Shown piece after piece: positions 21,988-42,927 of a stretch of DNA of 64,000 bases. This stretch comes from Entamoeba invadens IP1 (taxonomy: Eukaryota; Evosea; Mastigamoebida; Endamoebidae), in NCBI RefSeq assembly GCF_000330505.1, contig NW_004440169.1, positions 186,001 through 250,000 on the forward strand, given 5' to 3'. Position 1 is the first letter of the stretch, and every line of letters starts with the position of its first letter. Both the position numbers and the translations under genes were made by a program. The notes under the pieces are model-generated. The model did not search any database. It saw only the letters and a program-made list of their open reading frames with translations, and was not told where the DNA came from.

Positions 21988-22472
21988 TACATTTTTGTTT
22001 ATATTTTTTTTAAATTCATTTTGTTAACTCAGTAACTGTGACTTTCATTGAAATTTAAAATGTAGCCACTTTTATGTAAATTGAACAAAAAATGATTATT
22101 TGTATTAATAATAATTAATTAATAAATTAATAAATGATAAATGATAATTAATAATTATAGTATCAACAAAACACTATTTAAACACAATAAAAAAAATATC
22201 TCCTTTGTTTTTAACATTGAAAATCTTTTTATAAGCAGCTCTGCGAGATATTTCATAATAACTTAATTCGAGATGTTGCTTTTTTATTATTTCAAGTACG
22301 AAATAAAGAAAGCTATTGTTATGAAATAAAAAGCTAACTACTTTTCATAATACTTTGAAATGTTGTTTTTTGTCAAGAATAATTTGTAAACGTTTGTTTT
22401 TAAAACATTATTTTGGAACAATTACCAAATGAAGACATAAATGAAGACGCTTTGTATCTTTAAATAACAAAA
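21988..22472. other. AT-rich spacer upstream of the PFOR-like gene
   Basis: Repeats of TAATTAATAA and a stretch of alternating A/T. No gene or RNA seen. The region includes the presumed promoter of the PFOR-like gene; no canonical element could be assigned with confidence. Confidence 0.4.
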
Positions 22473-25400
22473 ATGTCATTGATTGATGGATGCCACGCAG
22501 TGGCACAAGTTGCTTATTACATGAGTGACACACAATTTATATTCCCAATTTCACCTGCAACATCCATTGGCGAAACGTGTGAAGAAATGTCAGCTTCTCA
22601 TGTTAAGAATATGTACGGAAACGTTACATCGGTTATTGAAATGGAAAGTGAACTTGGCTCAATTGCTTCTGTACATGGTTCTGCACTTACTGGTGCAATT
22701 CCATCCACCTTTACTTCATCACAAGGATTGTTACTAATGCCACCAAATATGTTCAAAATTGCTGGGGAGTTACTTCCAGCTGTTATTCATGTTGCATCGC
22801 GAAACATTGGAGCTTCTGGGATGACTGTGTTTTGTGACAATACTGATGTGCTGTCATGCAGATCAACTGGTTTCTGTTACTTAACGTCGAACACCCCACA
22901 AGAGAGCTACGACTTTGCCGTCATATGCTATATGGCCACAATCGAAGCATCACTCCCCTTCCTCCACTTCTTTGATGGGTTCAAAACTGGCTACGCACTC
23001 CAAAAAGTGAGCACGTTGGAACCCAACGATCTTTTCGGTCTGATCAATAAAAAGCAGCTGGAGAAGCACAGACAAAGGAGACTGTCTCCACACAACCCAA
23101 CAACACAAACTCTCATACAATGCAACGACACGACTTTCCAAGCAATGGAACGTACGAACGAGTACTATAACAGAGTACCCGAGATTGTCCAAAATTGTTT
23201 CAATAAATTCGAAGAGAAGACTGGAAGGAAATACAACGTTTTTGATTTGTTCGGCGACACTGATGCTGAGGTCTGTATCATCGCATTTGGTAGTGTCTGT
23301 GGAACAATCAGAAATTTGCTTTTGGAAGAGAACAAAAAACTTGTTGGGGAAAAGGTGTGCCTCATCGAAGTGAGGCTGATTCTGCCTTTCTCTGTCGAGA
23401 AGCTTATTGAGAAGATTCCAAAAACTACAAAGAAGATCGTTGTGCTTGACAAGACCAAAGAACCTGGAGCAAACGGGGAGCCTTTATATCAAGCAGTGTG
23501 TTCTGCATTGAACGAGGCCGATATGAGAATCAAAGTTCATGAATGCAGATATGGTCTTGGAGGCAAGGAAATGACCCCTTCCATGATTCTATCGATAATA
23601 AAGAATATTGCTGAGAACAACAAGCTGAAAACGATGTTTGTTCTATTTTTTTGCCTTATATTCTTCCCCATTCTGAAATGGCGAATCTTGTTCTGTTAAT
23701 CACTCATTCTATAAATACATCATCTATATACTACATTTAATAATTTACAAACTATACTTAATATATTAAATTGTAATTAAATAAATAATATAGTAATTTG
23801 AACCATATGTTTTGCCACAAAAGAAATAAACAACTGATTATAATAAAACAGCTATTTATTTATAGTTTCACAATTGGTATAGATGATGACGTCACACACC
23901 TCTCACTTTCATATGACTCAAACTTCACGATGAAAGGCGCTGATTTTGAGGTGATTATATATGGTGTTTCTGGTGTTCCAATATCAAAAACGATTTTGAG
24001 TTCCACAACGAAAGAAGAATACGTTCAGGGATTTAAAATGATAGATATGGCTAAAGAAGCTGGAATGGTAAGAAACGATCTCAGGATTTCTAAAAGAGAA
24101 ATTCTCTCACAATTTGAGATTGAAGAGGCGGATGTTGTCTTTGTATTGGAGAGAACTCAATATTTCGTTCCTGTTTTGAAAGACATAAAGAAAAACGGGA
24201 TTCTTGTCATTTCAGAAGATTGCGAGTCGTTCCAACAACTCAGCCTTGAGACGCTTGAAACGGTGTTGAGGAAAAACGTCAGAGTCTTTTTCAAGAAAAT
24301 GACAACTGAAGATTGCGTCAAAGAGGTACTAAAAATGAGAACTGGAAATCACTCATTTGATGAAGCAGATTACAAAGGTGGAATGTACAAACAGAAGATA
24401 GAGAAAATTATAGAAGAAAAGAGAGCACACAAGAAGGTTGTTAATGACAAGTACTACACCGATATAGTGCTGAAGATAGAAAATGGACATGGAAACGAGT
24501 TGAAAGTGTCTGACATGGTGCCTGGGTTCTATTGCCCAACTGGACAGTCACAGTTCAACAAAAGAAGAGTCAACAAAAGAATACCACATTGGGATATTAA
24601 CATGTGCCAACAATGCTCAACGTGCTCTATCGTGTGCCCGTCATCATCCTCACGAATATTTGCGCTTGACGTCGACCACCCAGTACCCGACGAGTTCAAG
24701 ATGAAAAATTCGACAAAGGGAAATTACAAGTACCGCGTGCAAGTATCACCGGAGGACTGTATGGGATGCAACAGCTGTGCGAGTTCATGCAAATCGAAGG
24801 CAATAACTATGCTTGAGGACGACGATAATTACGAAGAACAAGTGAGAAATTGGAAGTTCGCAATGACGATCCCGGACTTCGAAAAGAAGTCGACAATTGA
24901 GGAGTTGGCAATGAATAAACCATTACTTGAATTTGCGAACGTATGTACTGGTTGTGGAGAGATGGCTTCGGTGAAGATGGCAACGCAGTTGTTTGGAAAG
25001 AGAATGGTTTGTGCTATGACGTCTGGGTGTTCAAGTGTGTCTTCTGGGGTAATTGGTATGACTGCTTTCACAAAAGACGCAAATGGACGAGGACCAACAT
25101 ACGGCAACTCACTTTTGGAAGACAACATGGAGTATGCCTTTGGGATGGCAGTTTCATTGCACCAGAACAGAGAAATACTAGTTAAACATGTTAATACAAT
25201 TGTAAACAACAAAACACTGAGAAGCAACATTGGAAAGGAGTTTGCGAAGTTGTTGGAAGAGTGGCTTGTTGTAAAAGAAGACGGAGATAAAGCCGAGGAA
25301 CTTTGCGCAAAAATTGAACCACTTTTGAAAGAAATCAAAAGCGAAGAAGATATTGTTGAGGTGCAAAAGTATGCTGAATACTTCCACAAGATTGAGGCGT

Positions 25401-26029
25401 GGAGCGTTATTGGCGATGGCGCAGCATTTGACATTGGTACTGCTGGGGTTGACCATGTTGCTTCATTGCACGTTGGTTTAAAGACAATTATTAACAACAC
25501 CCAAGTATTTTCAAACACTGGCGGGCACCACTCAAAGGCAACACCAGAAGGTGCAATTTCCAAATTCGCTTCAAAGGGAACTGATGCTGTTCAAAAAGAC
25601 TTGGCATCAATTCTGATTAACTACGGCACGTGTTACGTTGCTCAGTGTTGTGTTCAGGCAAACCCCGAGCAAGCAATGAAAGCTTTGATCGAGGCCGAAA
25701 GGTTTAACGGACCGGCGTTTGTCATATTTTATTGTGTCTGTGTCGACCACAAATTCGACCTCCATAACGCAATTGAGGAATCGAGACTTCTGGTCCAAAA
25801 TGGGTACTGGAACTTGTTCAGATACGACCCGTCAAAGAAAGGAGTTGGTGTGAACCCACTCACACTGGACAGCGAGTGTAGGATCGTTGACTTTTCGCCA
25901 GTCATCATGAATGAAGACCGATTTTCGTTGCTTAGAAATGATGACGACAAAACAAAGCAACTTGTGAAGGGTATCCAAAACAAAATGCAAGAAAAACTCG
26001 ACGAGTTGGTGAAACAAACAAAGAACTAA
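22473..26029 (+). CDS. Divergent pyruvate:ferredoxin (2-oxoacid) oxidoreductase, two exons
   Basis: Exons are 22473-23635 and 23866-26029, with intron 23636-23865 (GTTTGT...TAG, phase 2); 1108 aa, slightly short for PFOR (about 1170). Domain order is that of single-chain PFOR: POR N-terminal pyrimidine domain (FPISPATS replaces the usual YPITPSS), transketolase-C-like domain, a gamma domain lacking the usual GSDGTVGANK loop, a two-cluster ferredoxin domain (CxxCxxCxxxCP at about 24604-24640; CxxCxxCxxxC at about 24758-24792), and the TPP/proximal-cluster domain (CTGCGE, GCSS, CVDH; GDG and SNTGG cofactor motifs). All cluster cysteines seem intact. The altered substrate and CoA-loop positions suggest a paralogue with shifted substrate use. 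Cytosolic, anaerobic 2-oxoacid decarboxylation to acyl-CoA with ferredoxin reduction is the family reaction. Confidence 0.88.
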
Positions 26030-27748: not shown

Positions 27749-28975
27749 TCATTTTTCATGTAAGAGATAAGGCAAAATTGTTTTCACAAAAGTTTTTCGA
27801 CGTTCATCTTCGACACTTTTAAATTTCTCGCTTTGAATTTCCTTAGGGTTCAGTTTCCGTTTAAATTGTTGTGAGAAGGATTGATCGAACTCACTGAAAT
27901 TCACTTCAAACAGGTTTTTGTCTTTGACTTGCAAAGGTTCACGACGGGAGATACAGACAATCAACACGTCATTTTGACTCATCTCCTGGACGGCGTTTTG
28001 AATTTTTTTTGTCGCCACCGTTTTCAGATTTGAACTTTTAAAAACGTCGTGGATTTTACAACAAAAGATCAGAGCGTTTGACTCGTGTTTTGAGTAAAAA
28101 CAAATTCCGCACGTTTGTGGGTTAAATTTTGTCACGAAGTCAGGGACATCCAACGGACTTTTCTCATATGAAATTGACTTCTGTTCTTTTGTTTGAATAT
28201 TCAAGAATTGTGATATGAAGACGTCAAACAAAATTCCGGTATTAATTGCATCGTTCAAAGCACAATGAAATTTAGGGTTTCGACTATGCCAATCACAACG
28301 AGTTCCATACTCAAGTTGTTTAAATATTAAATTGAGACTTTTCCTTGTGAAGTACATTTGGTGCTGCATGACGTCACAAATGACTTCACCAAGACAGAAG
28401 TGATTAATGAAAGTGAATTGTGGCATCGTGACCTTCGCCCACTCAAACATCGTCGTGAGACATTGGCAGTCCGAGGAGACTATTTCCTCTTTCGACACAA
28501 ACACAACATTTGCGTCGACCGCTCCACAATACTTCGTGACACTTGCGAGGAGCTCTTTGATCACTTTGGAGTAGTCTTTCCGTAAGTTCGGAGTACTTTT
28601 GGTGATGCCATGAATCAGTTGGTTGTATGTGAAGGTCCACTTTTGAATAGGGGGGTGTAACATACAGTGGTACGTACCTACTAAATCTTCGCCTATCCTT
28701 TTAAACACAAACCCCGCTTCAACAGGATACGTCCCGATGTCTTGAAATTGTGTAAATTCAAAATCATAAAACACAAAGACCACACGAGGGTTGTGAAGTA
28801 ACAAATCCTTGACATATCGTTTCGTCGTTTCTTCTTGTTTTTTGGTCTTTTCTCGTTGAATTTGTTTTTTTTCTCGGTTCATGACGTCTTCTGGTAATTT
28901 ACTCGACTGTTCTTTGGTTTCGTTTTGGGGAATCCGTTTGCTCAATCGTTTGGTTGGAGCTTGAGCTCTTTTCAT
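27749..28975 (-). CDS. DnaQ-like (DEDDh) 3'-5' exonuclease, Maelstrom-domain candidate
   Basis: 408 aa, single exon. The first ~60 residues are very basic and glutamine-rich (nucleic-acid binding or nuclear localisation likely). The RNase H-fold exonuclease signature follows: D71-F-E73 in VFYDFEFTQ, a candidate middle Asp at 169, and H237-x4-D242 in FHCALNDA. The block between (GTYHCMLHPPI.KWT ... HGITKSTP) matches the layout of Maelstrom-type domains, in which protist members keep the catalytic acids and His. A Cys-rich segment follows (QTCGICFYSKHESNALIFCCKIH), possibly zinc-binding, then a basic C-terminus. Possible role in small-RNA or RNA turnover (inference). A generic DEDDh exonuclease is the fallback call. 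Confidence 0.6.
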   Translation of the reverse strand: MKRAQAPTKRLSKRIPQNETKEQSSKLPEDVMNREKKQIQREKTKKQEETTKRYVKDLLLHNPRVVFVFYDFEFTQFQDIGTYPVEAGFVFKRIGEDLVGTYHCMLHPPIQKWTFTYNQLIHGITKSTPNLRKDYSKVIKELLASVTKYCGAVDANVVFVSKEEIVSSDCQCLTTMFEWAKVTMPQFTFINHFCLGEVICDVMQHQMYFTRKSLNLIFKQLEYGTRCDWHSRNPKFHCALNDAINTGILFDVFISQFLNIQTKEQKSISYEKSPLDVPDFVTKFNPQTCGICFYSKHESNALIFCCKIHDVFKSSNLKTVATKKIQNAVQEMSQNDVLIVCISRREPLQVKDKNLFEVNFSEFDQSFSQQFKRKLNPKEIQSEKFKSVEDERRKTFVKTILPYLLHEK

Positions 28976-29497
28976 ATAAGTTTCTTAGTTTTTCAAATAC
29001 TTTTGTAAATGTAAAGATCTTACTCAAATTTCTATTTTTTCAAAGTCATTGAAAGTTGTTTTCTTTAAGATTGGTATTCTTTCACAAACCCATTTCTTTA
29101 ATAATTAAATTTTATAATATTTAAACTATAATCATTGGTATTAGAAATATTAACTAGTATTATTAATAAAAAAACAATTTATTAATTTAAATTATATTAT
29201 TAATATAATTTAATTAAGAAAATTAAAAAATTATATTAATACTAACAAACGTTAAATAAAATAGTACATTGAATTATTCACACTTGTACATAAGAAATTA
29301 GTAAAAAAAACTATACTGACTTTGACGTATTACGACAAACTTCAACACTTTGATTGTCATTCACATTTTTTCTCTTTTTGCAAAGACGTTTAAATAGAAT
29401 ATAAAAAGATACCACAAAATAAGACGCTTTTGAATAGAACCCTTACTAGTTTGTTAATTCAACAATAATAAAAAAGATAGAAACATGAATTATTGCC
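28976..29497. other. AT-rich spacer up to the scaffold gap
   Basis: A+T-rich. The last ~90 bp before the gap look like an Entamoeba promoter plus leader, with an ATG at 29485 (MNYC...) running into the Ns, so a plus-strand gene may begin here and be lost in the gap. Confidence 0.3.
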
Positions 29498-36778: not shown

Positions 36779-37132
36779 TTAATAACGAAGTCTGAGAGCG
36801 AGGAGTAGGTCGCGATTGGTCACAGTAACTCGTTTTGAGTGTGCCGCGATTTGTTGGGAATCTTGAAAAAGCGAGACAAGATAACTTTCAGAAGCAGATT
36901 GAAGTAGTTCACACGCCCTTTTCTCAATTCGAAGAACATTTGGTTTTGTCTCTCGAGTCAAGTCGCGTGCAACTTTTTTGAAAGTGGCCTTAGGGATAAG
37001 GTTATTTGTAGTTCTCTGAAGTTGCCTCATTTCGGCTTCTATTCTTTGGAAAGGTTGTCTTGGGGGTGTACATCCGCTTTGTCGCCAAAACTCTTCCTTG
37101 ACGCATTTCGGCATCATATGGACATTATTCAT
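36779..37132 (-). CDS. Divergent histone H3 variant, candidate centromeric H3 (cenH3/CENP-A)
   Basis: 117 aa. A short tail of ~25 residues has no similarity to H3 tails. The histone fold matches H3: LIPKATFKKVARDL (for LPFQRLVREI), RACELLQSASESYLVSLFQD (for VMALQEASEAYLVGLFED) and AAHSKRVTVTNRDLLLALRLR (for [21 protein letters not shown]). Between alpha1 and alpha2 there is one more residue than in canonical H3; a longer loop 1 is typical of CENP-A. No ARTK, no K9/K27 sites. It would replace H3 in specialised nucleosomes, most plausibly at centromeres. Single exon, one of two H3-like genes in this window. Confidence 0.72.
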   Translation of the reverse strand: MNNVHMMPKCVKEEFWRQSGCTPPRQPFQRIEAEMRQLQRTTNNLIPKATFKKVARDLTRETKPNVLRIEKRACELLQSASESYLVSLFQDSQQIAAHSKRVTVTNRDLLLALRLRY

Positions 37133-37382: not shown

Positions 37383-37535
37383 CAGTTAGTTCCATAAAAA
37401 TTTACTAATGTCTCAAATTAATAATAAAATATACCAAAATAAATATAAATTGCACTTATTTTCAACTTTGTTTTACAATAATATTAAATTGTATCATAAT
37501 TAATGAAAATGTCTCAAATATTTAGTAAATTGTAT
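37383..37535. repeat. Left terminal inverted repeat of the composite element
   Basis: Perfect inverted match to 42589-42737 + 42930-42933. Internally repetitive: short units such as ATGTCTCAAAT and AATTGTATCAT recur, possibly multiple transposase-binding sites. Confidence 0.85.
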
Positions 37536-37771
37536 TCCTTTTTGATTTAAAAAATGAATAAAATATTCTACACATCTATTAATAGTAAAAATGATGTATT
37601 TCAAACACTTATGGGAATTATTATTGTATTGATCATTTTTGATGAAATTTGTTTTTCAAAATTGTTATAAAAATAATTTAAAAATAAAACCCTATAAAAA
37701 GATAATAAACATATAATATATTGAAATATAAACTTTAGAATTATTCAAAATTTTATTAACTTAAAAATCAA

Positions 37772-39859
37772 ATGAAAAAATTTGATTGGGCATTCCCATT
37801 AACAATGGAATGTAGAAAAGGCTTATCAATGGATCTCCAATTAAACTTTTCTTTTGGAGCTCAAGCCACACCATTTAACATTTGTAAAGTTCCTCCAAAA
37901 CCAACTTTCTTTGAAACGGAACTAGAAATCACAAATGAAACTAAATATTTCGAAAATCCAAATGAAAAAGATCCCACATTTATCAGAAATGCATTTTTAG
38001 CATCAAAACATATTGATCAACACTTTGAAATGTACAATGCCAGGATGAAAGAAATATCTAAACAATACTACGAAGAAGATGATATTCATGAAGTATTGTT
38101 TCCTAGACAAATTGTTCCATCTTCTCAATTGAATCTCAAAAGAAAAAAATATTACAATGAAAGAAAAAACGACTTGTATACACAAATATATATTTATTAT
38201 TCTGATTGTAATAATTATAATAGAACTGCCAAACAATTCAAATTGCCTCCTTCAACCATCCACAATATCATTGAAAGGGTTAAAAATGGAGTGTCTCTGA
38301 CTGGTAACAAAAGAGGGAGGAAATCGGGGCACAATTACAAATTTGATTATAATACAATAACAATGATACTCGAAGAAATAAGCGCGAACAAACTCACAAC
38401 CTTAAAATTGATAACAAAACATGTAAACGAAAAAAGAGATGAATGGATGGAAGCTATAGCTCGGTACGAATCTTATTTAATGAGAGATGAACATGAAATC
38501 AAAAAGATGTTGAAACAGAAAAAAGTCAGTTTAAGTGGTGTACACAGAATATTAAAGAGACTAGGAGTGACACTGAAACTAGTCAAAAAAGAACAATTTA
38601 ATCGAAACATCAAAGTTCGGATTGAACAAAGAAAAATATATGCTGATCATATCGAATATTTGAATTATTTCCAATTCGTTTATGCATATATAGACGAAGT
38701 TGGAGTCAACTCTAACCACACGAGAAGACAGGGTTATTCGTTTATAGGTCAATGTTGTAGTGTTGAATCCAAAAACATAAAAGAGCCAAATTTAACCACG
38801 TTTGCCATGATGGTCATGGGTAAAAATTTGGTGTTTCGTATTAGTAGTAAAAGCTCCAATGTCATTTTCATCAACAGCGTCAAAGAAGTTTTTATTCCAC
38901 AATTAATAAAGTGGTATGGTCCAGTTTTTATACACTTTGTAATTGATAACGCATCAATCCACAAGAAGGATATGATATCGGTGTGTCAAGAGTACGGAAT
39001 ATATGTAACTTATTTAGTACCATATTCACCTCAATTAAACGCTATCGAAAAATGCTTTTCAGCAATGAAGTCTTATTTGGCTGAGATTCTAAGTGATAAC
39101 GAGTCGTTCAAAAAAGCATTGAACTTTATGAAATGTTACGAATATCATGATTTGATACTCAAGGATGTACGAATGACTAACATAAATATAAAAATGTTTT
39201 CGTCTCTTGTTACAGCTTCATTGCTTTGGGTGAGTTCTCAAAGTACATACAATTTCCATATTAAAACGTTTGAATGGGTGAAAAGAGCAAAAGAAGGGAT
39301 TCGCTTTGAGAACGACGACAACTTAAACAATAAAATTGTTCGAATTGAAGTACCGATCCCTGACGAAGAATTTGTGTTTAGTTATAATGATAATAACTCA
39401 CAAAGTACTGTAAATTTTATATCCAGAAATGATGTACTGCATGTTTTGACGTATGACCCATTTACGATTAAAAATGAAAAGTCCTTTACAAATTGTGAAC
39501 GCTTTTTTCAAGAAAAACGTCAAGAAGGAGAATTGTATCGTTATAATGAAGGAAAAAATAACTACCAATTTGAACACAAAATCATTCCTGATATTTCTGA
39601 CACTTTTGCAATTCAGGAAAATAATATAATGGAAGAATGTGATTATTATAATGAAGAAAAGTTGAAAAGTGAGTGTTCAAAAAGTGAATATATGTTTTCA
39701 CAAATTTCAACAATAAAATGTTGTGACGATATTGATAAAAATACAAGTCCAAAACTCATATTACCTCGAGAAATTGATGAATCAACAATCGACTTAATTC
39801 ATCAAAAAATCAATGTGATGATGAATGCAAATGTTGTGTTGGGACTCAAATTCAATTAG
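37772..39859 (+). CDS. Tc1/mariner (IS630-type) DDE transposase
   Basis: 695 aa to its stop. HTH region: TAKQFKLPPSTIHNIIERVK then a GRKSG linker. Catalytic triad: D in YIDEVGVN (about residue 310), D in FVIDNASIH, E in SPQLNAIEKCF, with 33 residues between the second D and E. All three are intact, so cut-and-paste activity is possible. The long C-terminal extension (about residues 470-695) is Asn/Glu-rich. The last 26 codons overlap, in a different frame, the start of the C48-like frame. A single -1 step or one missing A at the A6 run 39804-39809 would continue this protein into that domain, for about 1056 aa. Terminal repeat identity suggests recent mobility. Confidence 0.85.
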   Translation: MKKFDWAFPLTMECRKGLSMDLQLNFSFGAQATPFNICKVPPKPTFFETELEITNETKYFENPNEKDPTFIRNAFLASKHIDQHFEMYNARMKEISKQYYEEDDIHEVLFPRQIVPSSQLNLKRKKYYNERKNDLYTQIYIYYSDCNNYNRTAKQFKLPPSTIHNIIERVKNGVSLTGNKRGRKSGHNYKFDYNTITMILEEISANKLTTLKLITKHVNEKRDEWMEAIARYESYLMRDEHEIKKMLKQKKVSLSGVHRILKRLGVTLKLVKKEQFNRNIKVRIEQRKIYADHIEYLNYFQFVYAYIDEVGVNSNHTRRQGYSFIGQCCSVESKNIKEPNLTTFAMMVMGKNLVFRISSKSSNVIFINSVKEVFIPQLIKWYGPVFIHFVIDNASIHKKDMISVCQEYGIYVTYLVPYSPQLNAIEKCFSAMKSYLAEILSDNESFKKALNFMKCYEYHDLILKDVRMTNINIKMFSSLVTASLLWVSSQSTYNFHIKTFEWVKRAKEGIRFENDDNLNNKIVRIEVPIPDEEFVFSYNDNNSQSTVNFISRNDVLHVLTYDPFTIKNEKSFTNCERFFQEKRQEGELYRYNEGKNNYQFEHKIIPDISDTFAIQENNIMEECDYYNEEKLKSECSKSEYMFSQISTIKCCDDIDKNTSPKLILPREIDESTIDLIHQKINVMMNANVVLGLKFN

Positions 39860-40941
39860 AAAATTATTTTAACCCAATTATTGACAATACATATCATTCA
39901 AAATCTTGGCAATATTGGGGTTATTATGATCCAAATGATTACAGAAGAGATACCACAACTACAAATGAAGTTAAAGAAAATTGCGAAAAATGTTTAACAA
40001 ATTCACAAATGGAAATAACAAAACAAATTTGTCATTCTTCATTTCAAAATGGTACTAATATAGAAGAGGGTCAAACAATCGGAATTGGTTGGAATTTTGG
40101 GGATAATTTGATGGATTTGAGTGATTTGGATGATGAAGTTATAATTGTTAAAAAAGAAATGGAAGTTATAGACTTGGATGGTTCTTTAAAATATGAAAAT
40201 ATTGAAAATGCAAATTCCGAATTCTTGAATTATAAAACATCAAAAAAACAAATAGAATTTGATTATTCAAGAATAAATTCCTCGTTGATTTTTATGGTTA
40301 AACCAATTATAAACTTGCCATATTCTACTGATATATCCGCAATTCAAAATGTCATAACTTCTGAAATGCTTAATACAGAAATACTCGATTTGTATATTTT
40401 GTGGATTAAACTGAGAAATGTGTGCTTGTGGAAAAGATCGATTTGTTTAACTGATTGGAATAATTTTACCGATGGTGGAATTAGAAAGAAAAGAGTTAGA
40501 GAAGCGATCAAAAATATGGGTATTTGTGATACTTTTTTGCTTCCTGTTTTTTATAATTCACATTTTATGTTGTGTGGAGTATTTTTTGTTGATTCCTCAA
40601 CACCCATCATAGCCGAGTTCAACAGCATTAAGAATTACTCAAGTGGATTTCTTAGAAAAGTTTCCAAATTTCTTAGAGATGAATTCGAAAAAGAGAAAAG
40701 AATTAATTTCAATTTAAAATGGGTTGTTGAAATACAAACTCCAATTCAATTTGACTTAATATCATGTGGTTCTTATTCGTCTTATTTTATAGAAGCGATA
40801 TTCAAAAGCAATCCAAGATGTGTCAACAACATCCACAAGTGCTTTTCTGATTCATCAGCTTTTAATTTTCGGACTGAAATTTTATCTTTGACATCAGTCG
40901 ACAACATACAAAGAATTCTTAATCTTATTTCTTATTGTTGA
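39781..40941 (+). CDS. C48 (Ulp1/SENP-like) cysteine peptidase domain, fused to or following the transposase
   Basis: The frame is open from 39781; the first ATG is at 40009 (310 aa from there). Sequence upstream of that ATG is coding-like (WQYWGYYDPNDYRRD...NCEKC), so translation probably enters from the transposase frame. The peptidase core shows His in FYNSHFMLCGVFF, an EFNSI strand where the family usually has a catalytic Asp (Asn or Glu here), and Q-x5-C-G in IQFDLISCGSYSSYFIEA, matching the Gln oxyanion residue and nucleophilic Cys of Ulp1 peptidases. The replaced acid may reduce activity. The family cleaves SUMO/ubiquitin-like modifiers or isopeptide bonds. C48 domains are known as cargo of some other DNA transposon groups. 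Confidence 0.7.
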   Translation: MNNRLNSSKNQCDDECKCCVGTQIQLENYFNPIIDNTYHSKSWQYWGYYDPNDYRRDTTTTNEVKENCEKCLTNSQMEITKQICHSSFQNGTNIEEGQTIGIGWNFGDNLMDLSDLDDEVIIVKKEMEVIDLDGSLKYENIENANSEFLNYKTSKKQIEFDYSRINSSLIFMVKPIINLPYSTDISAIQNVITSEMLNTEILDLYILWIKLRNVCLWKRSICLTDWNNFTDGGIRKKRVREAIKNMGICDTFLLPVFYNSHFMLCGVFFVDSSTPIIAEFNSIKNYSSGFLRKVSKFLRDEFEKEKRINFNLKWVVEIQTPIQFDLISCGSYSSYFIEAIFKSNPRCVNNIHKCFSDSSAFNFRTEILSLTSVDNIQRILNLISYC

Positions 40942-41052
40942 ATTAATTGTGTAATTTTATTTTTTTCTTCCCAAAAATGCATACTTAATAAAATTGTCCT
41001 ATTAATATAAATATCAAGAAGTAGTATTCAATTTTTAAATCAAAAAGGAATA

Positions 41053-42589
41053 TCATAAATAAATAAAATGTCTCAAAATAATATTTTGTTTCAAATTATT
41101 GAAAAAATGTATCAAATAAATGAAAAATATATATCATAATTGTTATAACTTGTCTCATAATTTTGATAATAATTAAAAAAACATTTAAAAATAATAATTA
41201 AAAGTCTTCACGAGCAAATATTTTTAGAGTAACTACAGAGTAAAAATGTTGAATTGTTTTTTTAATTTCATGTGGTGGAATTTCATTAAAACACAAACTT
41301 ATGTTTTCAAACATATCTTTCAAATCAACACTTCCCAATTTCCCGACTTTAGTTTTCCAAATACCGAAAACATTTCTATTGGATTACACTCCGGAGAATA
41401 AGGAGCGTTATATAATACTTCACACCCCTTTACATTTGCAATTTCCACAATTTCATCTCTGTGTATAGCTGCGTTATCCAAAACAAATACAATCCAACTT
41501 CCATCTGAAGTAAATGTTTCAAGTAAATTCCGAAAATATACTTTAAATATGTCTCCGTTAACTACCGTGTTGAATAAATTGCAATATTTATTTCCAGAAT
41601 CTGATATGGCGCAAATGCAACTTAAGTTATACGTTATCAATGGCGTTTCAACGATATGTTTTCTTCCTCGTTGTCCCCATGCACTCGTTTTCACATTTCC
41701 AACACTCCAGTGACTTTCATCAACAAATACAACTGAATACCCCGAGATAATAAATTAATCTAGTTTTCTCCTCTTTTCGATTCTCAACTCTTTATTTTCT
41801 GGTGTATTTGCCCTGGGTCCTCTTTTGGTTATTTCAATAAATGATAGTTGTGGTAATAAACACGTTTCCATTATTTGTTTGCTGTGAATATATCGATGTA
41901 TTGTTGAAATTGAAATTGACTGCATATTTTTCTCGGCGATATCTCTCTTACAATCACGTAGACTTTTCTTTCAATAGAAAGTTGTTTTGATATTTCAGTT
42001 AATAGCTCAGGACTATATTTGGGTTTTCTTCCTCTTTTCGATGGCTTTGATATGTTCCTGCCACTACAGAATTCTTTTAAAAGTCTTCTACAAGACTGAG
42101 TCTGGATTCTTGTCTTTTGTTGATAAAAGTCAACAGATTTTGTCGTTCCAAACTCTGCATAAAGTTCAATCATTTTTTTGTCTCTGTGATTCGGTAATAT
42201 TAACATATATTCTTTTTTTTCTTGGACGACTGTTGTTCGTGATGCTCTTCTTGAGTCATGATGGCTCTTGTAGCCATAATTTCCTCTTCTTGTCTCATTG
42301 GTATGAGATCTTTTTCAATTGGTATATTTTCTTGAAGAGGGGGTCTGTCGAGATAATGATTAACATTAACTTGATGAATGAATTCAAAATGGTCGATTGA
42401 CATACAATCTTTAATTAAAAATTCAGTTTAAATACACAAAAATTTGGTAATTAACAATAATGTTAGAAATAATTATCAAAATTACGAGACAATTTATAAC
42501 AATTATGATATATATTTTTCATTTATTTGATACATTTTTTCAATAATTTGAAACAAAATATTATTTTGAGACATTTTATTTATTTATGA
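41053..42589. repeat. Inner inverted repeats of the second mariner (41053-41175 / 42469-42589)
   Basis: About 123 bp, near-identical inverted copies (two differences seen) bracketing the decayed minus-strand transposase. On the right the inner repeat runs straight into the 153-bp outer repeat; on the left the outer part is missing and the sequence abuts element 1 at GGAATA|TCATAAAT. Confidence 0.8.
41198..42403 (-). pseudogene. Decayed Tc1/mariner transposase (second element)
   Basis: Reading from 42403: MSIDHFEFIHQVN..., an HTH block (KSVDFYQQKT...RRLLKEF, then KPSKRGRKPKYS), catalytic D in VFVDESHWS, D in FVLDNAAIH, E in ECNPIEMF (33 residues between the last two), and a C-terminus ending FAREDF at 41198. 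At least four frame changes or stops break it, so it is inactive. Motifs are mariner-type but clearly different from the intact transposase beside it. Confidence 0.8.
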
Positions 42590-42737
42590 TACAATTTACT
42601 AAATATTTGAGACATTTTCATTAATTATGATACAATTTAATATTATTGTAAAACAAAGTTGAAAATAAGTGCAATTTATATTTATTTTGGTATATTTTAT
42701 TATTAATTTGAGACATTAGTAAATTTTTATGGAACTA

Positions 42738-42927
42738 AAGACCAACAGAAAATTGTCGTACACTTGTGATTTTAGTATCAAACAAACCAAAAAATCGGGA
42801 ATATTTTTTCATGTATAAAATTTGACTAAACAATCAGGAAAAAAATTGGGTTTTGAAAAAATAAAAACCCGACTTTATACAGAAAAAAACCTTAAAACAA
42901 TGTGTACGACTATTTTCTGATGCTCTT
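42738..42927. mobile_element. 190-bp MITE, copy 2, nested in the right terminal repeat
   Basis: Same element as 7584-7773. It is inserted at GGAAC-TA-ACTG in the host repeat with duplication of TA (42736-42737 and 42928-42929). The uninterrupted version of the target is present at the left end of the same transposon (37383-37396), which proves the insertion and its boundaries. Confidence 0.92.

Follow-up and report, generated by a model that had tools for sequence, protein, structure and literature searches.

In a 64,000-nt stretch of the Entamoeba invadens IP1 genome (contig NW_004440169.1, positions 186,001 to 250,000; hereafter the window), we delimited a complete transposon and compared it with its relatives in the same genome. 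These comparisons indicate that the family is a Tc1/mariner-type (IS630-like DDE) cut-and-paste transposon that probably encodes one large protein, a transposase joined to a C48 (Ulp1-like) peptidase, and that the window copy has been broken by a single base. The predicted family protein would run from an N-terminal DNA-binding region through the DDE transposase and a linker to a C-terminal Ulp1/SENP-like cysteine protease. The fusion is well supported at the family level, and the window copy itself is frame-broken: as assembled, this copy does not encode the fused protein. The features of the element are collected in Table 1. Other copies are named by their contigs in the 35-Mb, 233-contig genome assembly, and the 14 elements examined are the window element and 13 stretches around the stronger of 56 transposase matches in the genome; all matches outside these 14 scored at most 49.9 bits.

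Table 1. Features of the window transposon (window coordinates).
Feature	Position	Strand	Detail or evidence
TA target-site duplication, left copy	37533..37534	.	the host element's partner repeat, an empty site, has a single TA
Complete transposon, TTCC...GGAA, 3516 bp	37535..41050	+	empty-site comparison; full-length 98% copy C186:54627-58158 in different flanks
Left terminal inverted repeat, 26 bp	37535..37560	+	25/26 matched
Transposase open reading frame, 695 aa, ATG start	37772..39859	+	DDE_3; triad D308/D392/E426
Weak helix-turn-helix, Sleeping Beauty type, transposase residues 145-172	38204..38287	+	E 0.005, 16.9 bits, below cut-off of 43
Second frame (linker and C48), 386 aa, stop-to-stop	39781..40941	+	first ATG 40009; Pfam stretch = residues 245-365
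A6 run where the window copy leaves the fused frame	39804..39809	+	
Two candidate SUMO-interaction motifs in linker, VIIV and VIDL	40138..40182	+	acidic neighbours
Stretch with C48/Ulp1-like catalytic domain	40228..40938	+	His 40561, Asn 40621 (Asp position), Gln 40747, Cys 40765
Right terminal inverted repeat	41025..41050	-	
TA target-site duplication, right copy	41051..41052	.	empty-site comparison

The first part of the predicted protein is an IS630/Tc1/mariner transposase. It matched DDE_3 in Pfam (1.6e-17, 64.1 bits, cut-off 28.6), and Pfam and NCBIfam ranked DDE_3 and IS630 first rather than the Gypsy-integrase-type DDE core of Ginger1 elements. The NCBIfam IS630 match (2.7e-24, 86.2 bits) lies below the equivalog cut-off of 100, which is not defining for eukaryotic members because these models serve bacterial and archaeal annotation. 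The DDE_3 domain is accompanied by a TA duplication, terminal inverted repeats and the DDE triad, all features of the group; among 13 relatives the first D was present in 13, the second D in 11 (C11 has a gap and C88 an N) and the E in 12 (C23 has a K). In the Tc1 subgroup 34 residues separate the second D and the E, a spacing that the window transposase, with 33 residues between D392 and E426, does not share. Neither the window transposase nor its C48 frame had a match at E 0.001 among 5.8 billion protein sequences; with an alignment of nine pieces as the query, the same collection yielded two DDE_3 proteins of 317 and 332 aa, too short to hold a C48 tail.

For the second part, the window sequence matched Peptidase_C48 in Pfam at 2.4e-4 (21.4 bits against a curated cut-off of 20.7), and its frame had no phmmer match in PDB up to E 1. 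A profile built from seven C48 domains of mariner-type elements found human SENP1 in PDB (E 6.7e-8, over 155 positions), so that the assignment of the second frame to C48 by the initial annotation of the window was borne out by both profile matches. The same profile also aligned, at a probability of 98.3, with one made from C48 domains of the host and of Harbinger-type elements. Support for the C48 domain is thus marginal from the single sequence and solid from seven aligned family sequences.

The evidence for a fusion comes from the join between the two frames. Both frames and the A-run lie where the initial annotation had placed them; the second frame is at -1 relative to the transposase frame, and the two do overlap, by 79 bp rather than the 78 bp that had been given. 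Two close copies of the window element were recovered, C186a (C186:54627-58158; full length, 98% identical) and a copy at C107:228067-230749 (98% identical up to an assembly gap). In both, the A-run is one base longer than in the window and the sequence reads openly from the transposase over the join into the linker, after which C107 runs into its gap. With a longer run and an open join in both, the break in the window is best read as a one-base loss, which would leave the window encoding a complete transposase minus the protease tail. C186a and C107 are each other's nearest kin (96/91 in the transposase tree), so by themselves they give no polarity for the change. The distant subfamily C11/C88, in which the transposase C-terminus and the C48 region stand in one open frame, points to the fused state being older than the broken one. 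The join itself is probably old, since subfamilies share it even though their transposases are no more than about 30-50% identical. An intron at the join was considered and rejected because the sibling copies are continuous there. Likewise, we rejected a 1895-aa frame at C107 as the product of an N gap.

A C48 core was found in 10 of the 14 elements examined, weakly in C88 (E 0.002) and through likeness to C190 in C143 and C23; the assignments in C190, C143, C11 and C88 were made through resemblance to the window copy or to one another. Seven elements (the window, C186a, C72, C200, C186b, C88 and C23) have TA-TTCC inverted repeats, 52 bp long and perfect in C200, and in all seven the repeats enclose both transposase and C48. 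Thus the combination that the initial annotation had described, a mariner-type transposase carrying C48 at its C-terminus, is found within element ends in distant subfamilies too. No TA-TTCC repeat pair was found in the other seven elements, among which C107 and C143 have lost the right end to a gap or the contig end. One of the 14 elements, C68, provides a contrast: an intact 485-aa mariner with different repeats and no C48.

In a tree of 15 C48 sequences (C143, C11 and C230 were too short to include), those of the mariner-type elements formed one clade (98/95, five rows). The transposase tree, which leaves out the window's neighbour element (55 columns), gave another picture: the label 'C48' needed two changes, none of 200 bootstrap trees had one, and the root is unsure. 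In this count C151 was scored as a carrier, though no C48 core was detected there. C55, a decayed element in which no C48 was found, grouped with C190 (99/97). A single gain of C48 by the mariner-type family is therefore plausible rather than demonstrated. Between subfamilies, five C48 comparisons gave nonsynonymous differences (pN) of 0.39-0.52 against synonymous differences (pS) of 0.64-0.71, the latter near saturation, which suggests that the C48 domain has been kept by selection. Two faulty rows were left out of the pN/pS comparisons, the C107 C48 (18 codons over the N gap) and the window-C72 DDE (18 codons in the wrong frame).

Several observations weigh against a family-wide fused protein. 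A complete fused mariner frame was intact in none of the 14 elements examined. Between the two domains C72, C200, C190 and C143 change frame, with offsets of +1, -1, +1 and +1 (the window has -1), and in C186b both parts are in the same frame with two stops between them. C186a and C107 carry stops and other frameshifts. The initial annotation had held that copies with an intact stop would speak against a fusion; the two siblings have none at the join, but C186b and the four frame-changing copies mean that this objection is answered only in part. No C48 core was detected in C151, C55 or C68, the C107 copy is cut by its assembly gap, and the transposase tree does not unite the carriers in one group. 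The window C48 domain barely exceeds the Pfam cut-off, Pfam listed C48 for only two of the six mariner relatives submitted (C72 and C200, not C190, C143, C11 or C88), and a fold predicted for this C48 stretch as a single sequence gave no usable model (mean predicted local distance difference test score, 39). The position of the catalytic Gln is a His in C88 and was not readable in C11, and that of the His was not readable in C143 and C23. Changes between the window and C186a look neutral (transposase pN 0.014, pS 0.022; C48 pN 0.011, pS 0.007), although few, neutral-looking changes between the window and its siblings are expected of inserted copies. Finally, the C72-C200 C48 ratio of 0.26 comes from very few changes.

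Two alternatives concern how the domains are expressed. In the first, the element makes two proteins: the transposase ends at 39859 and C48 is a second open reading frame starting at the ATG at 40009, through its own promoter, reinitiation or an internal start. This is the layout of the window copy as assembled, where an ATG precedes the C48 core; the domains lie in different, overlapping frames in C72, C200 and C190 as well, and C48 is an additional protein in some CryptonS elements. We nevertheless judge it quite improbable, as the sibling copies and C11/C88 are open over the join and the second frame is already open 228 bp before its first ATG. Moreover, copies disagree on the sign of the offset and thus have no fixed two-frame layout in common. 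The disagreement extends to C72 and C200, which are about 98.9% identical: each of two A-runs differs in length between them by two bases, and one has a positive and the other a negative offset. Random slippage in A-runs, whether in evolution or in sequencing, would account for such mixed offsets, and a conserved programmed frameshift would not.

The second alternative is programmed -1 ribosomal frameshifting or transcriptional slippage at the A-run, through which the window copy would yield the fused protein in minor amounts. A-runs are slippery, and the sole family copy in which both frames are otherwise intact, that of the window, is the shifted one. This alternative is nonetheless highly improbable: no X XXY YYZ heptamer stands at the run (codons CAA AAA ATC), A6 is short for slippage, offsets run in both directions among relatives, and the siblings need no slippage at all. 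Of the two routes to a fusion named in the initial annotation, then, the extra A has the two close copies behind it and the -1 step, as programmed slippage, finds no support.

A different question is whether the window copy is in fact fused, its six-base A-run being a mistake of the assembly; this would concern that copy only and is compatible with fusion at the family level. The longer run in the siblings would fit an error, and the two-base differences in the A-runs of C72 and C200 resemble homopolymer errors. When we compared A/T runs of at least six bases between the window and C186a, however, 12 of the 15 matched runs were equal and 3 differed (17 runs in all, the junction being among the two unmatched), and 20 open frames in the window stay open over 62 such runs, though these frames were chosen for being open. 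An error here is unlikely, and a genuine one-base loss in a family with a fused protein remains our preferred account.

Whether the tail would be an active protease depends on its catalytic residues. The window has the Cys, the His and the oxyanion Gln, and an Asn at the position of the catalytic Asp. Over the 10 C48 copies the Cys was present in all, and the Gln (six residues before the Cys) and the His were each clear in 8, though residues read in decayed copies may fall in different frames. The initial annotation had spoken of a lost Asp: the Asn is there, but 'lost' does not describe it, as Asn is common in the clade (window, C186a, C190, C143, C11, C88, C186b and C23; five of six subfamilies) and Asp is present in C72/C200. 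In the viral SUMO-type protease pS273R, the catalytic residues are given as His168, Asn187 and Cys232, with Asn as the third (PMC9866604), so an Asp-to-Asn change alone is no sign of a dead C48 enzyme.

The tail could instead be dead, or a non-proteolytic SUMO-binding module kept only for targeting. The prevalence of Asn, the His for Gln in C88, the weak Pfam score and the candidate SUMO-interaction motifs that adjoin the domain in the window would all suit such a module. We consider it unlikely given the Cys in all copies, the mostly clear Gln and His, the Asp kept in C72/C200 and the precedent of pS273R, and we predict an active protease. The motifs themselves are suggestive only. The window linker has three matches (two overlapping) against 0.61 expected, with a shuffle P of 0.036, uncorrected for the seven linkers tested; the two Harbinger-type linkers have two matches each (P 0.29 and 0.17), and C11, C190, C200 and C186b, the four mariner linkers tested besides the window, have none.

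The ends of the element were fixed by its insertion site. It has entered the left inverted repeat of a second element of mariner type (the host element), whose 271-bp inverted repeats lie at 37386-37534 plus 41051-41174 (the split left repeat) and 42468-42738. The outer 149 bp of the cut repeat are 100% and the inner 124 bp 97.6% identical to the partner repeat. The two parts overlap by exactly TA, so the insertion is 37535-41050 with a TA duplication, and both the transposase and the C48 frame lie within it. On the minus strand, at about 41293-42206, the host element contains a DDE_3-like transposase that has decayed (E 1.1e-5), and the element's end has two further matches, on contig C93. 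A genome-wide search with the repeat-pair pattern (35-60 bases apart, TA included) found seven small elements, six with 76 bp and one with 77 bp between the TAs; the pattern read backwards had no matches. Together, the small elements and the full-length element give the usual Tc1/mariner family picture with non-autonomous copies.

Three neighbouring genes in the window were also noted. A short, divergent histone H3-like gene of 117 aa (36779-37132, minus strand; Pfam Histone 9e-22) is separated from the host element's repeat by about 250 bp. Pyruvate:ferredoxin oxidoreductase (22464-26029) falls into two frames separated by about 90 AT-rich bases; the interruption may be an intron, decay or an assembly fault. 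A Maelstrom-domain gene occupies 27749-28984 on the minus strand (2.9e-8); the Maelstrom family is linked to transposon silencing in animals.

A second, unrelated fusion was found in the same genome. Two intact single open reading frames, of 879 aa (C186:465044-467683) and 918 aa (C114:329022-331778), combine a DDE_Tnp_4 (Harbinger/ISL2EU-type) transposase with a C-terminal C48 domain. The domain was found in their C-terminal pieces (1.9e-7 and 6.1e-5) and also in a six-frame search; hmmscan on the entire frames gave no C48 match up to E 0.1. Decayed copies are present at C152, C230, C72:533k, C108 and C57, and element ends were not found in the stretches examined. In an alignment of 11 sequences that included host sequences, the His, Asp, Gln and Cys of the Harbinger-type domains were invariant. 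In the C48 tree, the Harbinger-type sequences (95/96; long branches may be drawn together here) and, with weak support, the host ones (66/73) each formed a group apart from the mariner group. Only in the intact 879- and 918-aa frames did we find direct DNA proof that this genome encodes a complete transposase-C48 protein; in the mariner-type family, we infer the complete protein from comparison of its copies. A further C48-like family was seen at C187:63951 and C158:109662, partly in assembly gaps.

A host SUMO gene at C23:43900-44330 ends in GGY, so a Ulp is needed for trimming; of the several Ulp-like genes of the host, none has such a transposase in the short flanking stretches examined. 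As the simplest reading, we propose that the tail would bring a deSUMOylase to the transposon ends, acting in cis, where it would strip SUMO off the transposase or off host proteins of chromatin or repair, and that this removal would ease excision or allow escape from silencing. The deSUMOylation step taken alone has somewhat less than an even chance of being right. More tentative still is the broader proposal that excision or escape from silencing requires SUMO to be removed locally at the ends, by a tail working in cis in the transpososome, and that this need is why, in the lineage of this amoeba, transposases of two unrelated superfamilies, IS630/mariner and DDE_Tnp_4, each acquired a C-terminal SUMO-protease tail. 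Two unrelated fusions in one genome hint at elements that tamper with host protein-tagging when they jump. Mariner transposases are among the simplest and most easily assayed, with one protein, short terminal inverted repeats and a TA target, and the 76-77-bp non-autonomous copies and the second fusion make a role of SUMO removal in transposon movement directly testable.

The two fusions in this genome are alike in joining a transposase to a C-terminal C48 domain; they differ in that the transposases are unrelated and the DDE_Tnp_4 C48 keeps its Asp. In Entamoeba, the Tc1/mariner elements Hydargos, Gemini, Piglet, Mogwai and Gizmo, which we compared by description only, share the short terminal inverted repeats, but their E. 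histolytica and E. dispar members are described with proteins of 335 and 336 aa, and the words protease, peptidase and Ulp1 are absent from the main text of that repeat survey (PMC2657916). No Ulp1/C48 carrier of Tc1/mariner or Harbinger type was found in a limited literature search, with Repbase and most subscription papers outside its reach. Mutator-like elements belong to a different transposase superfamily from mariner. Ulp1/C48 domains have already been published in Ginger1, Mutator and Crypton elements (PMC2836005, PMC3212892). Like the window family, Mutator-like elements are DNA transposons that carry ULP1/C48 (cited in PMC2836005). Cryptons likewise bring a C48 peptidase into a transposon of protists (oomycetes), but with a tyrosine recombinase rather than a DDE transposase and with the peptidase described as an additional protein in some CryptonS (PMC3212892). 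Ginger1 elements share the layout: a DDE transposase with a C-terminal Ulp1-family (or OTU) cysteine protease in an element with terminal inverted repeats, for which the authors propose that the Ulp1 and OTU tails act in transposition, the same kind of role as proposed here (PMC2836005). Ginger1 has a Gypsy-integrase-type DDE core and a zinc finger, in contrast to the DDE_3/IS630-type core and TA duplication of the window element (PMC2836005). Ulp1-type transposon tails are thus a known kind, of which a mariner-type (IS630) carrier is a new form.

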